A DNA stretch of 64,000 nucleotides from Gloeocapsa sp. DLM2.Bin57 (GTDB taxonomy: Bacteria > Cyanobacteriota > Cyanobacteriia > Cyanobacteriales > Gloeocapsaceae). The DNA is taken from positions 62,001 through 126,000 of the forward strand of contig RECR01000066.1 of assembly GCA_007693955.1 (NCBI GenBank), in the 5' to 3' direction. The notes beneath the pieces are model-generated. The model saw only the letters and a program-made list of their open reading frames with translations. It searched no databases and had not been told where the DNA came from. Position 1 is the first letter of the stretch. Each line of letters begins with the position of its first letter. Both the position numbers and the translations under genes were made by a program. Shown one piece after another: positions 22,058 to 53,900 of the stretch.

Positions 22058-22401
22058 ATTTTGCTTCTCACGGCTAATAATTGTTCTTCGAGGGCAGCGA
22101 TACGATGGTAAGATGCGGTTAACTGCGCGGTTAGTCTCTGAATCTGAACATCTGGTGAGAGTAATTCTTCTAAATCAGATTTTTGATAATGTTCTTGACC
22201 ATTGTCATTATCGTCTAAAATATCTTTATGTTTATTCTTTTGAGTTGTTTTTTGTTTTTTATAGCTAGTATAATTACTGACAGGGGTTTGTTTAGAGTCT
22301 TTGAGCAAACGTTCTAATTTATTGCTCAAGCCTTCGATAGTGCGGTAAAGTTGGTCAACTTTGTAGTGTAATTCGAGAATTTGCCTCTGCATTGATTCCA
22401 T
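22054..22401 (-). CDS. Small coiled-coil protein of unknown function
   Basis: 115 aa. The N-terminal ~35 residues (ILELHYKVDQLYRTIEGLSN) and the C-terminal ~30 (RLTAQLTASYHRIAALEEQL) are heptad-like helices, separated by a charged Lys/Asp-rich linker. No family recognised. Divergent from the binding-protein gene at 22490. Confidence 0.6.
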   Translation of the reverse strand: MESMQRQILELHYKVDQLYRTIEGLSNKLERLLKDSKQTPVSNYTSYKKQKTTQKNKHKDILDDNDNGQEHYQKSDLEELLSPDVQIQRLTAQLTASYHRIAALEEQLLAVRSKI

Positions 22402-22489
22402 AGTTATTCTATTATTTAACTGGTTACTGCTATCCTAATCATACTTTTGGGTTAAATAGCAACTATTTCTGATTAATTTAATATTCCTA

Positions 22490-23566
22490 ATGTTAACTCG
22501 TCGCTCTTTATTAATTGGTTTAAGTGGTATCGTAGCAGCTAATCTTTTAACAAGTTGTCAAAATAAGCACAATGGTTTACGGGTATCTCTGTTGAGAAGT
22601 TCTATTCCTGCGCAACTTTTAACTAAATTTCGTCAGGGAGTAGATCAAGATAGATTGATTAATTTTCAACTAGAAACTAGTTTAGACAACCTCTGGGAAT
22701 TACTAGTTAATCAAGAAGCAAGTTTAGTTACTCTTGGGGATACTTGGTTAGAAAAAGCGATTAGAGAAAATTTAGTACAACCTCTAAGTAAAGAGGAGTT
22801 AAGCAATTGGCAACAATTACCCTCTAACTATCAACAGTTGGTAACTCGCGATCGCCTTGGTTATCCTAACCCTAATGGGCAAATTTGGGGAGCACCTTAC
22901 CGCTGGGGTACAATGATGATCGCTTATCGCAGTGATTATTTAAGTAAATTAGGTATTACCCCTAATGATTGGGGTGATTTATGGCGAGAAGAATTGCGCG
23001 ATCGCTTTTCTTTACCTAATGATCCTCGGGAGGTTATTGGTTTAACCCTGAAAAAACTAGGTTATTCCTATAATCAAGAAAATTTAACAGCTATACCCCA
23101 ATTAAAACCCGAATTAGAACGATTACATCAACAAGTTAAGTTTTATAGTTCTGACTCTTATTTACAACCGTTAATTATGGGTGATACCTGGTTAGCTGTA
23201 GGGTGGTCAACAGATATTATACCCTTAGCCAAAAATTATAGCAGAATTGAGGCGGTTATACCCTCTTCGGGAACGTCTCTTTGGGTAGATGTTTGGGTTA
23301 AAGCAACTCAAGAAAATCATCAAGATACTAATATAATTAAACAATGGCTTGATTTCTGTTGGCAACCCCAAGCCGTTGAAGCTATTACCCGTTTGACTGA
23401 TGCTGCTTCTCCGATGATTTTAAATAATCCTATCGCTGCGGAAATAGATAAACCTTTAGTAGTTGTTGACGAGAATATTTTAGAACGTAGCGAGTTTTTA
23501 TTACCTTTATCTGCTGCTACTTTAGAGGAGTATCGACATCTTTGGGAAGCGGTAGTGTTGGGATAA
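22490..23566 (+). CDS. PotD-like extracellular solute-binding lipoprotein
   Basis: 358 aa. The N-terminus combines a twin-arginine-like TRRSLL with a lipobox LLTSCQ, so export and lipid anchoring are likely. The body resembles spermidine/putrescine-type binding proteins (WGAPYRWGTMMIAYRSD, MGDTWLAVGWSTD, W-DFCWQPQAV). No permease or ATPase gene is adjacent. Ligand is inferred from the family and unproven. Confidence 0.82.
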   Translation: MLTRRSLLIGLSGIVAANLLTSCQNKHNGLRVSLLRSSIPAQLLTKFRQGVDQDRLINFQLETSLDNLWELLVNQEASLVTLGDTWLEKAIRENLVQPLSKEELSNWQQLPSNYQQLVTRDRLGYPNPNGQIWGAPYRWGTMMIAYRSDYLSKLGITPNDWGDLWREELRDRFSLPNDPREVIGLTLKKLGYSYNQENLTAIPQLKPELERLHQQVKFYSSDSYLQPLIMGDTWLAVGWSTDIIPLAKNYSRIEAVIPSSGTSLWVDVWVKATQENHQDTNIIKQWLDFCWQPQAVEAITRLTDAASPMILNNPIAAEIDKPLVVVDENILERSEFLLPLSAATLEEYRHLWEAVVLG

Positions 23567-23603: not shown

Positions 23604-23634
23604 CTATAACCAATAAGATTATTAAATAACTATA
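23604..23634. repeat. 31-bp direct repeat, copy 1
   Basis: Perfect 31-base match to 24617-24647. It starts CTATAACCAATAAG, and its core AATAAGATTATT is an inverted repeat. It lies 14 bases before the DUF4351 gene. Confidence 0.9.
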
Positions 23635-23648
23635 GAGATCATTTTACC

Positions 23649-24530
23649 TTGACTAGATTTATCTATGACCAATTTAATAAAGATTATCTCGAAACCCTTT
23701 TAACTCCTTATGGAGAAGTACAAGTGGCTAAACAACTTTCTGACGAAATCAGAGAAATCGACCTTTATTTTAACCCCACCGTTGCGACACTTCCTACTGA
23801 ATTGGGTATCCTAGCTAAACTAGCAGCGACAAAGTCTCTATTTGAACCTTACCGTAATCCCGTTACTCCTAGAGAAATTGGCGATTGTCTGCTCAAACTT
23901 TTAGCCGTTAGAGCACAATTATACCGTGAAGGTAACCGAAATAAGCAAACTATCTTAGATTCAGACTTACCCCGACTCTGGATTATTACCCCAACAGCGT
24001 CTAAAGCAATACTGAGTCAATGTGGTGGAGAGATTCAATCCGATTGGGGAGAAGGTATCTACTTTTTGGCTAATCTATTAAGAGCGGCTATAATAGTGAT
24101 ACACCAGTTACCCTCTACTAGTGAGACTTTATGGTTAAGATTATTAGGAAGGGGAAAAGTACAACAACGAGCAATAGAAGAGTTAATCAACTTATCTCCA
24201 GATAATCCTCTTAAATCAGTTATTCTAGAGATACTCTATACCTTACAAAAGAATTTAGAAGTTAATCAACCAAGTACAAACACAGAAGAGAGTGAGTTAA
24301 TCATGAGACTAGCACCATTATATCAAGAAGATAGAGCCAGAGCTAAAACTGAAGAGGCTTTAAGTCTAATTCAGCGATTATTAACTAAAAAATTAGGAAA
24401 TATTAACCCTGATTTAATAACAACAATTTCTCAATTAAATTTAGAATCTTTAGAGACATTAGCCGAAGATTTAATGGATTTTACTAGTCAAGCAGATTTA
24501 GAGAATTGGTTGAGAAATAAAATAATTTAG
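23649..24530 (+). CDS. DUF4351-containing protein (Rpn/PD-(D/E)XK-like family)
   Basis: 293 aa, starting with TTG; no ATG fits. The C-terminal ~60 residues (LIQRLLTKKLGNINPDLITT and LESLETLAEDLMDF) are a DUF4351 domain, which normally caps Rpn-type nuclease/putative transposase proteins in cyanobacteria. The N-terminal ~230 residues are the diverged body (YGEVQVAKQLSDEIREIDLYF); the catalytic residues of an active nuclease are not obvious. The gene sits inside a 1-kb segment bounded by a perfect 31-bp direct repeat, so horizontal arrival is likely. Confidence 0.75.
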   Translation: MTRFIYDQFNKDYLETLLTPYGEVQVAKQLSDEIREIDLYFNPTVATLPTELGILAKLAATKSLFEPYRNPVTPREIGDCLLKLLAVRAQLYREGNRNKQTILDSDLPRLWIITPTASKAILSQCGGEIQSDWGEGIYFLANLLRAAIIVIHQLPSTSETLWLRLLGRGKVQQRAIEELINLSPDNPLKSVILEILYTLQKNLEVNQPSTNTEESELIMRLAPLYQEDRARAKTEEALSLIQRLLTKKLGNINPDLITTISQLNLESLETLAEDLMDFTSQADLENWLRNKII

Positions 24531-24535
24531 GGTTA

Positions 24536-24608
24536 GGTGGAACGGTGGAACGGTGTTATTCTGAATTAAGAATTAATTATTGTTTCCTACACCCTACACC
24601 CTACACCC
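24536..24608. repeat. Short tandem repeats (octamer and heptamer)
   Basis: GGTGGAAC is repeated 2.5 times at 24536-24555, and CCTACAC three times at 24586-24606. Short tandemly repeated repetitive sequences of this kind are common between cyanobacterial genes. Here they lie between the DUF4351 stop and the second copy of the 31-bp repeat. Confidence 0.8.
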
Positions 24609-24616
24609 TCTCTTCC

Positions 24617-24647
24617 CTATAACCAATAAGATTATTAAATAACTATA
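24617..24647. repeat. 31-bp direct repeat, copy 2
   Basis: Identical to 23604-23634 over 31 bases in the same orientation; flanking bases differ on both sides. It marks the right boundary of the DUF4351 segment and lies 40 bases from the amine oxidase relic. Confidence 0.9.
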
Positions 24648-24687: not shown

Positions 24688-25440
24688 TTAACCAATTTCT
24701 CTGATAATAATCTGAGCAGCTAATCTACCCGTTTGAGCAGCACCATTCATATAACCGTAAAATTCATCGCTGAAATTTTCTCCTGCGAAAATCAGTTGAT
24801 CTACTCTTACTTCTTGGGATATTTCCCCATCTTCTTCTACATAAAAAAATTCACTAAACTCAGTTAATTGTCCAGGTTTAAAACTAGTATAACTACCTTG
24901 AGAGAGAGGATTAGATGTCCATTGAGTTTTCTTCATAATCGCTGTAAATCAAGCCTGAATCTTCCCCTATTTGTGTAGCAATTGGGGTTAATGCTTCTAC
25001 TAGTTCAGCTTCAGAAAGACTGCGACCATCGAGATAATATTTAACCAAAGGATAATCAAGAGATTCTGCGTGTTCGTTACGATTAAATAATTTTAGTTGA
25101 AAATCATCAATTAAGCTAAGCATATCTTGGTGATTTACATTAATAAAAGACCCGCCTAAATCTGATACTAAGTCTTTACCTACTCTAGAAGTAATTGAAA
25201 TAACTCTTCCTCCTAAGCGATTATTCGCTTCATAAACTGTTGCTTTGATACCGTTTTTTTGTAGTTGATAAGCTGCGTTTAAACCTGCTAAACCACCCCC
25301 AGCGATCGCCACATGAGGAGGACTCTGACTATTTACGGGTAATCTCGGAGATACTAGACTGGTAGTTATGGCTGTAGCTGTGGCTAAAGTAACTTTTTTC
25401 AGGAATTTACGTCTGGTGTAGGCTTTTTTGAGTAGTTTCT
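24688..25440 (-). pseudogene. Flavin amine oxidase, internally deleted and frameshifted
   Basis: Two fragments of one FAD-dependent monoamine oxidase. The N-terminal one has a twin-arginine-like leader (TRRKFLKKVTLATATAITTS) and the dinucleotide-binding motif IAGGGLAGLNAAYQL, with EANNRLGGRV and LGGSFIN, and ends at 24911. The C-terminal one (24936-24688) is in another frame and has the FAD-binding end IFAGENFSDEFYGYMNGAAQ. Family members are roughly 450-500 aa; here some 250 residues in the middle are gone. No ATG, GTG or TTG precedes the leader in frame; only GTG 25312, inside the FAD fold, is available. Clearly non-functional as an oxidase. Confidence 0.85.
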
Positions 25441-50955: not shown

Positions 50956-53900
50956 TTACTTACAGAGTGCTCGCTCTTGTGGGGATAACTTCTGATTGGT
51001 TTGTAAATAATCAGCTACCCATTGACAACCTTGTTTTAACATTGTTTCTGGATCAGCATCTAAGATTAAATCCCAGACAATAACTTCACCTGAAGCTTCA
51101 GCAGAAACTAATTTCAAACCATCTGGAGTAAAATTAACAGTATTGATTCCTGAATTATGACCACCTAGAGTTTGTAAAATCTTTCCTTGAAGATTCCATA
51201 ATTTAATAGTTCCATCTTCACTACCGGTAGCTATGATTTGACCTTGGGGATGAAAACTGACGGTATTGACTTCTCCTTGATGACCTCGTAAAGTAATTAA
51301 CTCTTCTCCCGTTAAATTCCATAATTTGATAGTTTTATCTTTACTTACCGTAGCAATGGTTTGACCATCAGGACTAAAAATAGCTTTCAAAACACTATCT
51401 TGATGACCTTTTAAGGTAACTAATAGTTCTCCTTGACTATTCCAGACTTTAGCGGTGGTATCATCACTAGCTGTAACTAAATATTGATCATCTTCACTAA
51501 AACTAACGCTTCTGAGACTACCCTGATGTCCTCGTAAAGTCACTCTAGGTTGTCCTTGTAAATCCCAAATTATAGCAGTGGTATCCCAACTAGCTGTCAC
51601 AATTCGTTGACTATCATGACTAAAATGAGCGTCTCTGACGTCTCCTTGATGTCCTTCTAAGCTAACTAATAGTTCTCCTTGAGTATTCCAGACTTTAGCG
51701 GTTTGATCTCTACTAGCGGTGACTACTAATTGATTATCTCGACTAAAATTAATGCTTCTGAGGTTATCACCATGATCATTGAAAACAGCTAGAGAATTCC
51801 CCTGTAAATCCCATAACTGACCCATATTGTAATTTCCTGCTGTTGCCAACAAACGACCATCAGGACTCAGACTAAGATAAGCAGTAGCTGTATCTCCTAG
51901 AAAAAAACGCTCTCGATGAGGAGTTTTTAGGGTGGTATCAGACACATTCCACAGACGTACTGTCCCATCTTCTCCACTACTAGCGAGAAGATTACCATAA
52001 TTATTAAAATTAACTCCTAAAACCCCTTGGGTATGACCTTGGAATATTTCTAGTAATTGACCTTGAGTATTCCACAAACGAACGGTGTGATCAAAACTTG
52101 CTGTAGCAATGATCTGACCATCTCGACAAAAGACGACACTAGCTACTGTATCTGTATGTCCTCTAAAAGTAGCTAATTCTTCTCCTTGAAGATTCCAGAG
52201 TTTAGCGGTTTTATCTTTACTACTGGTAACTAAACTTTGACCATCAGGACTAAAATTGACGTACATTAACCAATCTGTATGTCCTTCTAAACTAGCTATT
52301 TCTTCACCCTGAAAGTTCCAAATTTTGGCTGTCCCATCACGACTAGCGGTAGCGATTAAATTATCTTTAGGACTTACAGAAATAGCCACAACGGGTTCTT
52401 GATGAGTAGGAAAGGATTGTAACAGTTCACCCTGTATATTCCATAACTTTATTATCCCATTCCAACCTATAGTAACCACTATCTGACCATTTTTACTAAA
52501 ACCTACACAAGCTACCCAATCCCCAACATCTAGGGTAACTATTTCTTGTCCATCTTCAACACGCCAAATTCTAGCGGTTTTATCCCTACCCGCGCTAACT
52601 AGGTATTTACCATCTAAACTGTAATTAACGCTCCAGACCGCATCGTTATGACCTGTGATAGTATGGAGTAAAGTTCCATCAGGTCGCCAAATTCTAACGG
52701 TTTTATCCCAACTAGCGCTAGTTAAGGTTTGACCATCGGGACTAAATTTAACTCTAGTGACTACATCTTTATGACCTTCTAAACGGTTACCTTCTCTTAC
52801 CCAATAAAGAGATTGTAGTAAGGTTTTTTCTACCTGTACGCTTAAATCTGTATTTTCCCAACCCATAGACTGTAGTTTTCTCCCGGCTTGCAGACTTTGT
52901 AAGAGTGCATCTAGGTTATATTGAGACTCAAAAGATGCCTCAGAAGCTAAGGTCATGGCTTTAATTTCCCCAAAAGCTACTTGTCTTTTTTGTCTAGAAG
53001 TTTGTATGGCTAACCATCCTGCTGTTCCTAATAAACTTAAAGCAATTAATAACCCAAAATGAATAATTTTTTTCCCTTTTTTTTCGGCTTTGCTGAGAAT
53101 TTGGTTGGCTTTTTGAGTAATAATTAAATGGCTATGTACCTCTTTTTTTTCTCTTTCTTGACTAGCCGCTAGGTAACGATAATCTTCGTTGCTTAAGTTT
53201 TTATCTTTAGCCCATATTTGAGCGTTGATTAGGTCTTGTCCTTTTAATAAATAAGCCTCATCTTCATAGTTAGAGGCTACCCAAGCTTTGAGTAAGGAAG
53301 CGTAAGGACGTAATTGATTAATTTGTTTTTCTACCCAATTTAAATTAAAAACTTCTGTATAAATAGGATTATAAGGACGTAAATAACCTTCTTGTTTAAC
53401 AACTAATCCTGATAATAATAATTCGATTTGTTCGGCAGAATCATCAGCTATGACACTATCTTCTAGTAAAATCTGTCGATAGAGTCCTAATAATCGACTA
53501 GCGCGATGTTCGTTGTTTAAAAGGCGATCGCGAATAGTTCTTAAATGGGGGGGTTCATCTTGGGCTACCCAATTATCAATTATACTATTTTGGACTATTT
53601 CTGCTACCTTTAAGGTATCTAGACCAATTTCTGAGTGAGAAACTATCATTTTACAGAGTTTTTGAGTTAGAAAAGGTTGTCCTCTGGTCCAATGTAAAAT
53701 TTCTTGCATCACCCAACGAGGTTGTTTGACTTTTTCTTGTACTCCCATTATCAAAGGTTGTACTTCTTCTAGCTCAAATCCTTGTAAGTGAATAGCGCGA
53801 CCAACATTAAAAGGAGTGCGAGTTTTATCAGCAATCAAATCAGTTGGAGTAGCAACCCCCAAGAGAGTAAAGGTTAGATGTTGATATTCATGACAAGAAC

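Follow-up and report, generated by a model that had tools for sequence, protein, structure and literature searches.

The Rpn-like DUF4351 gene described here stands between two identical 31-bp direct repeats, and the downstream repeat is probably an orphan leader, left by a head-to-tail duplication of the gene from which the second gene body was lost. The gene lies in a 64,000-nt stretch of DNA from the cyanobacterium Gloeocapsa sp. DLM2.Bin57 (contig RECR01000066.1, positions 62,001–126,000), which we refer to as the window. On this reading, the repeat is accounted for without a new mobile element, and orphan leaders offer a simple sign for recognising lost duplicates. The window locus is then ordinary in origin; it is the family to which the gene belongs, with an empty site at one paralog and variation in steps of four amino acids, that is interesting.

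The repeat was noticed in an original prediction made from the DNA letters, and a sequence check of the window shows it to be exact: the two copies lie on the same strand and agree at 31 of 31 positions (Table 1), and the match widens to 36 nt at 94% identity. With up to three mismatches allowed, the 31-mer has two matches in the window and none in 100 dinucleotide shuffles. A search of the genome with the inner 30 bases as the query returned three copies with up to three mismatches, two of which are leaders; the third copy lies directly 5′ of a paralogous gene, C59, with one mismatch. The 31-mer was not found in the 99 other genomes of a 100-genome search, and there were 0 matches in viral contigs. 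An inverted 77% match at 22397–22426 was set aside as likely due to chance in AT-rich DNA.

The two copies have different relationships to the DNA around them. The bases that follow the 31-mer into the gene are the same for copy A and for the C59 copy, and the 31-mer is therefore part of the gene's leader. The C59 protein is 92% identical to that of the window gene over residues 1–235; a further paralog, C43, keeps a diverged form of the 31-mer leader. Copy B and 24 bp of its left flank match the C59 leader and its left flank at 54 of 57 bases with no gaps, although the flank part of this match is weakened, to the detriment of the duplication-and-loss reading, by its position in dispersed heptamer repeats. 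Among the other heptamer arrays listed, none has the same following bases as the copy B flank. To the right of copy B, the match to the leader stops at once. Because the match runs leftward into C59-type flank and stops on the right, copy B would be the beginning of a further family unit that has lost its gene. The left flank of copy A is unlike those of copy B and C59, which calls for at least one change more in the history of the locus. The suspicion that 31 bp is too long for a usual target duplication is borne out, since these bases are the leader of a gene unit, common to paralog C59. Judged from these alignments, the repeat in the window is not a target-site duplication. The suggestion that it marks a recombination event also holds.

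Table 1. Features at and around the 31-bp repeat pair (window coordinates).
Feature	Position	Strand	Remarks
Left neighbour, extracellular solute-binding protein (SBP) gene	22490..23566	+	Ends shortly upstream of copy A
Copy A (31-bp repeat), leader of the gene	23604..23634	+	Spans −45 to −14 from the TTG start; counterpart at the same position upstream of paralog C59 has 1 mismatch
Rpn-like DUF4351 gene, 293 aa, TTG start	23649..24530	+	PD-(D/E)XK-like fold predicted for residues 1–167; helical C-terminal DUF4351 domain
Putative intragenic small protein (RpnS-like), 75 aa	24303..24530	+	Internal ATG (Met219); without 4-aa repeats
Spacer behind the stop, containing short tandem runs of GGTGGAACG and of CCTACAC heptamers	24537..24616	+	Final 24 bases correspond to the left flank of the C59 leader
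Copy B, probable orphan leader	24617..24647	+	86 nt behind the stop; leader homology ends at right edge
Right neighbour, decayed flavin amine oxidase gene	24688..25312	−	Two short ORFs, 24688–24936 and 24911–25312

The preferred reading can be laid out in a few steps. The unit of ~1 kb would comprise the leader and the Rpn-like DUF4351 gene, with copy A as the leader still in place and copy B as the leader belonging to a second unit, of C59 type, set head to tail behind the first. A second gene would once have lain to the right of copy B; with the loss of its body, the locus would have come to read leader–gene–leader. Ordinary tandem duplication followed by deletion would be enough, with no dedicated enzyme. 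Unit sequence is indeed found in direct order behind the first unit, in the form of copy B and its 24 bp of C59-type flank, and by alignment copy B is homologous to a family leader together with its outer flank. A search for the second gene body by blastn and tblastn gave no match in the 1.6 kb behind the stop except the 31-mer. This absence of any trace to the right of copy B counts against the reading, in which the deletion of the second gene is an inference.

The spacer between the stop codon and copy B contains the two kinds of short tandem repeats that had been predicted, both of them legible directly in the sequence. GGTGGAACG is present twice, at about 24537–24554, and CCTACAC about three times at 24586–24609; TRF at score 50 reports neither run. 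The CTACACC heptamer has 34 overlapping matches with at most one mismatch in the genome, and because it is dispersed in this way, it is not specific to the window locus. We take these heptamers to be of the STRR (short tandemly repeated repetitive) type of cyanobacteria, which they resemble as CTACACC-type runs between genes. Repeats of this type account for the tandem runs near copy B, but not for the 31-mer.

Leader repeats of this kind are not confined to the window. We compared the start region (−120 to +60) of each family gene with the 500 nt behind its own stop codon, using 100 ORFs from the same loci as controls. At score 50, a leader repeat within 500 nt after the stop was found for 15 of 66 family genes, the window gene included, and for 0 of 100 controls (1 of 100 at score 34); the enrichment (Fisher p 3e-7; 2e-6 without the window and paralog C37) should be read with the relatedness of some loci in mind (several Microcystis, G033/G073), since rows are not fully independent. 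For nine of the 15 genes, the second copy is full or, in the available sequence, extends over most of its length (L100, L076, L090, L098, L083, L114, L078, L062, and L116). At L092, it is retained from −52 to +381 only. For the remaining five (the window, L054, L081, L084, and L119), there are only leader or upstream pieces of a second copy, and the repeats at L081, L084, and L119, which match upstream DNA outside the gene-proximal leader, may be other repeats. Second copies in relatives thus range from complete through cut short to the leader alone. All 33 loci drawn from a named genome collection come from cyanobacterial records. Of the 133 family blocks in a larger set, 13 contain runs of two or three genes. 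A pair of genomes whose neighbouring genes are 96% identical, G087 and G070, appears to capture the decay itself: at the L198 site, a whole gene in G087 corresponds to a 189-nt inner fragment in G070, and at the L205 site, G087 has two copies and G070 one. Fragments of family genes that deletion has left behind are seen, then, between close species. As far as these comparisons go, duplication and decay are frequent in the family, in many cyanobacteria, and a leader remnant would therefore be a natural end point.

A different history is indicated for paralog C37 (L054), a DUF4351 gene located between cofH and mutS2. The gene is flanked on either side by a copy of a ~332-bp stretch that runs from the 5′ end of cofH across the gap into the 5′ end of mutS2. 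The two copies (1668–1999 and 3004–3345 of L054) are 83% identical, and the duplication is far longer than is usual for an insertion sequence. Stops interrupt the mutS2 start in the left copy, and it remains open in the right one. In the same-genus genome G001 (L160), cofH and mutS2 adjoin, with one such stretch and no DUF4351 gene, constituting an empty site. From this comparison, C37 is a 1-kb insertion with a long target duplication, and both neighbours were spared. The inserted piece carries the start region of the gene at both ends (2008–2060 and 2946–2998, 91% identical). In C37 (L054:1668–3345), a TGA ends the nuclease frame, and the C-terminal frame, 2682–2969, stays open.

Across the family, 16 of 129 blocks are flanked on either side by direct repeats within 400 nt, compared with 5 of 320 control genes (p 5e-6; 4e-5 without the window and C37), with the same partial dependence among related loci and with four of the 133 blocks left out because their flanks are too short. 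Of these 16 blocks, C37 is the only one with an empty site, and in the absence of further empty sites, the other flank duplications are ambiguous between insertion and tandem duplication followed by loss. At L105, L185, L227, and L233, the repeat is seen more than twice, and these blocks may hold dispersed repeats. Two candidates for a second empty site were rejected, L198 because G070 holds a decayed copy and L205 because G087 holds two copies; for a third, L258, no useful relative was found.

With P for the cofH/mutS2 junction, which G001 has uninterrupted, the order at C37 is P1–leader–gene–leader copy–P2; its inner part has the leader–gene–leader order of the window locus. Because this piece lies inside an insertion, copy B could have arrived with a cassette: the whole leader–gene–leader stretch may have been cut from a tandem array or a circle elsewhere and have come in as one terminally redundant piece. 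We regard this origin as unlikely for the window locus. Synteny breaks right at copy A, in line with a cassette. The SBP gene to its left has orthologs in the same genus (L051, 79% amino acid identity; L052, 65%), and other genes follow it in both same-genus relatives: aroE in G002, the genome with the 79% identical SBP, and in G001 a different gene without an NCBIfam match at E 1e-20, which is presumably rhomboid-like. The ABC transporter to the right of the window gene has no match in G002 and only ~50% identical relatives, located elsewhere, in G001. None of the relatives shares the right-hand neighbours, so that an empty site cannot be demonstrated for the window locus, and none was found in the two same-genus relatives. 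Against the cassette, moreover, no duplicated target DNA other than the 31-mers is seen within 2 kb of the window gene. The original description of the locus as a ~1-kb cassette therefore fits the family, which at C37 moved as a single-gene ~1-kb cassette, better than it fits the window locus, for which no empty site was found. An extension of the cassette idea supplies a mechanism. Cyanobacterial Rpn-like DUF4351 genes might move to new sites as single-gene cassettes with no transposase, by means of the nuclease that they encode: it would make cuts staggered by tens to hundreds of bases, after which repair would duplicate the target stretch on either side (at C37, 332 bp) and join in a head-to-tail leader–gene–leader piece, of which the 31-bp repeat in the window would be the terminal redundancy. 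This proposal is speculative, and we consider it quite improbable as it stands.

The notion that a mobile element of 1 kb, perhaps retro-mobilised, left the repeat as its target-site duplication or at its boundary draws on the exact direct repeats that flank the gene, on the spread of family copies over seven contigs of the genome, and on the 5′ truncation of two of them, C55 and C45. It is contradicted at the window locus by copy A, which is homologous to the C59 leader and in part to that of C43 and is thus DNA of the unit, not of the target; the short target-site duplication expected of an insertion sequence is accordingly not seen. The 5′-truncated copies keep the C-terminal protein frame, which would give their truncation a possible reason of its own. 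None of seven proteins scanned around the repeat matches a transposase or reverse transcriptase family, so that nothing points to the retro-mobilisation originally suggested, and no terminal inverted repeats join the ends of 23604–24647 among the longest 25 of 46 inverted pairs. We consider a mobile element of this type very unlikely. Just as unlikely is a pair of regulatory sites that bind a factor or drive transcription on both sides of the gene. Copy A is placed where a promoter would be and is kept with one mismatch before C59, but neither copy has a promoter-like match (in a scan whose matches do not exceed those in shuffled sequence), behind copy B there is nothing but the 3′ end of a decayed gene, on the opposite strand, and the leaders of family genes in G001 are unlike one another. 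Duplication followed by loss remains the reading that we prefer for the window.

The enclosed gene has the TTG start and the DUF4351 tail predicted for it, as seen in the ORF list and by Pfam (residues 231–288, E 1.5e-19). An AlphaFold2 model built on 30 sequences has a mean pLDDT of 86.7. Searched with Foldseek, the model matched EndoMS (2vld) at E 0.017 and probability 1.00, with no match at E 0.001; VIA-align placed 2vld at Z 8.9 (3.0 A over 102 residues) and 5gke at Z 8.6, followed by McrC, Can2, NucC, and restriction enzymes; all of these alignments cover approximately residues 1–167. We take these proteins to be PD-(D/E)XK nucleases. As modelled, the N-terminal part of the protein has a PD-(D/E)XK-type nuclease fold, which is a statement about fold rather than activity. 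Asp38 and Glu66 never vary in the alignment; located in the second and third strands, they would be the active-site acids, as expected for this fold; the usual lysine after the second acid is absent, and an invariant Arg69 follows instead. A sequence search of the PDB with the family profile found nothing meaningful (best E 0.034), and PADLOC gave no match for 3 of 3 proteins.

The C-terminal part of the gene appears to form a unit of its own. Met219, the putative internal start, is invariant in 30 of 30 aligned relatives, and the frame that begins there is open in all seven genomic copies (window, C59, C43, C37, C61, C55, and C45), with lengths of 75, 79, 79, 83, 87, 93, and 95 aa and a start codon that is ATG in six and GTG in one. 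The length differences are mostly 4-aa repeats of the G-K/R-x-E type, in variable number as in Rpn proteins; C59 also has two extra residues at the C-terminus. Five of the seven copies lack the nuclease part or have it interrupted. Selection may keep the C-terminal frame open in the broken copies, but for the lesions to fall outside that frame in 5 of 5 of them is not rare, given about one lesion per copy. By analogy with published Rpn proteins, and from the predicted fold and the anatomy of the gene, the gene most likely encodes a DNA-cutting toxin restrained by its own, separately translated C-terminal piece. Fold and anatomy likewise favour the Rpn-type affiliation originally proposed, which the profiles do not: the window protein has no PF04754 or TIGR01784 match up to E 5, and its relatives L088 and L100 reach only E 0.0066 and 0.044 against TIGR01784 (16.3 and 13.6 bits; cut-off 52.1). 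The protein is probably Rpn-like, from a divergent cyanobacterial branch outside the Rpn profiles.

Comparison with described rpn genes brings out both likeness and difference. In the parts of the survey by Zhong et al. drawn on here, RpnL/RpnS genes (COG5464) contain a small C-terminal frame with its own start, stand-alone C-terminal DUF4351 genes occur, and tandem direct duplication is given as the origin of rpn arrays (Zhong et al. 2023, PMC10327210). The cyanobacterial genes share with RpnL/RpnS the combination of a predicted PD-(D/E)XK-type nuclease domain with a putative frame of this kind, as well as 4-aa repeats of varying number behind the putative internal start, and they share with rpn genes in general the many copies per genome and the head-to-tail arrays. 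Unlike Rpn proteins, they fall below the Rpn profile cut-offs or have no match. A large cyanobacterial family thus looks and varies like Rpn toxin–antitoxin genes, yet scores below the Rpn profiles. They differ also in C37, with its ~332-bp target duplication and empty site; the same parts of the survey report no target-site duplications for the rpn genes studied (PMC10327210), so that this one clean empty site shows a long duplication that the survey, to that extent, did not see. Empty sites make the movement of rpn-type genes testable. A further parallel is RpnA–D of E. coli, for which RecA-independent recombination is described, likewise a nuclease family tied to DNA joining and to sporadic gene gain; as far as the portion used here extends, that work deals with E. 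coli paralogs only and includes no cyanobacterial DUF4351 protein (Kingston et al. 2017, PMC5350276). Relatives of the window protein also occur in 38 plasmid records, all of them <60% identical.

Several smaller observations concern individual sequences. In the array of L185 (G041), which is the same array as L076, two full genes are followed by C-terminal-only copies that start at residue 219, the conserved internal start. A promoter-like match (10/12) lies inside the window gene at 24066–24094, 209 nt before the internal ATG, and does not exceed shuffle expectation. The flavin amine oxidase ORFs at 24688–25312 are without the middle of the domain; the gene bordering the repeat on its right is thus a decayed one. 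Elsewhere in the window, a tandem repeat at 51394–51682 (period 123, 2.3 copies, 70% match) is, judging by its period, likely a WD40-type coding repeat.
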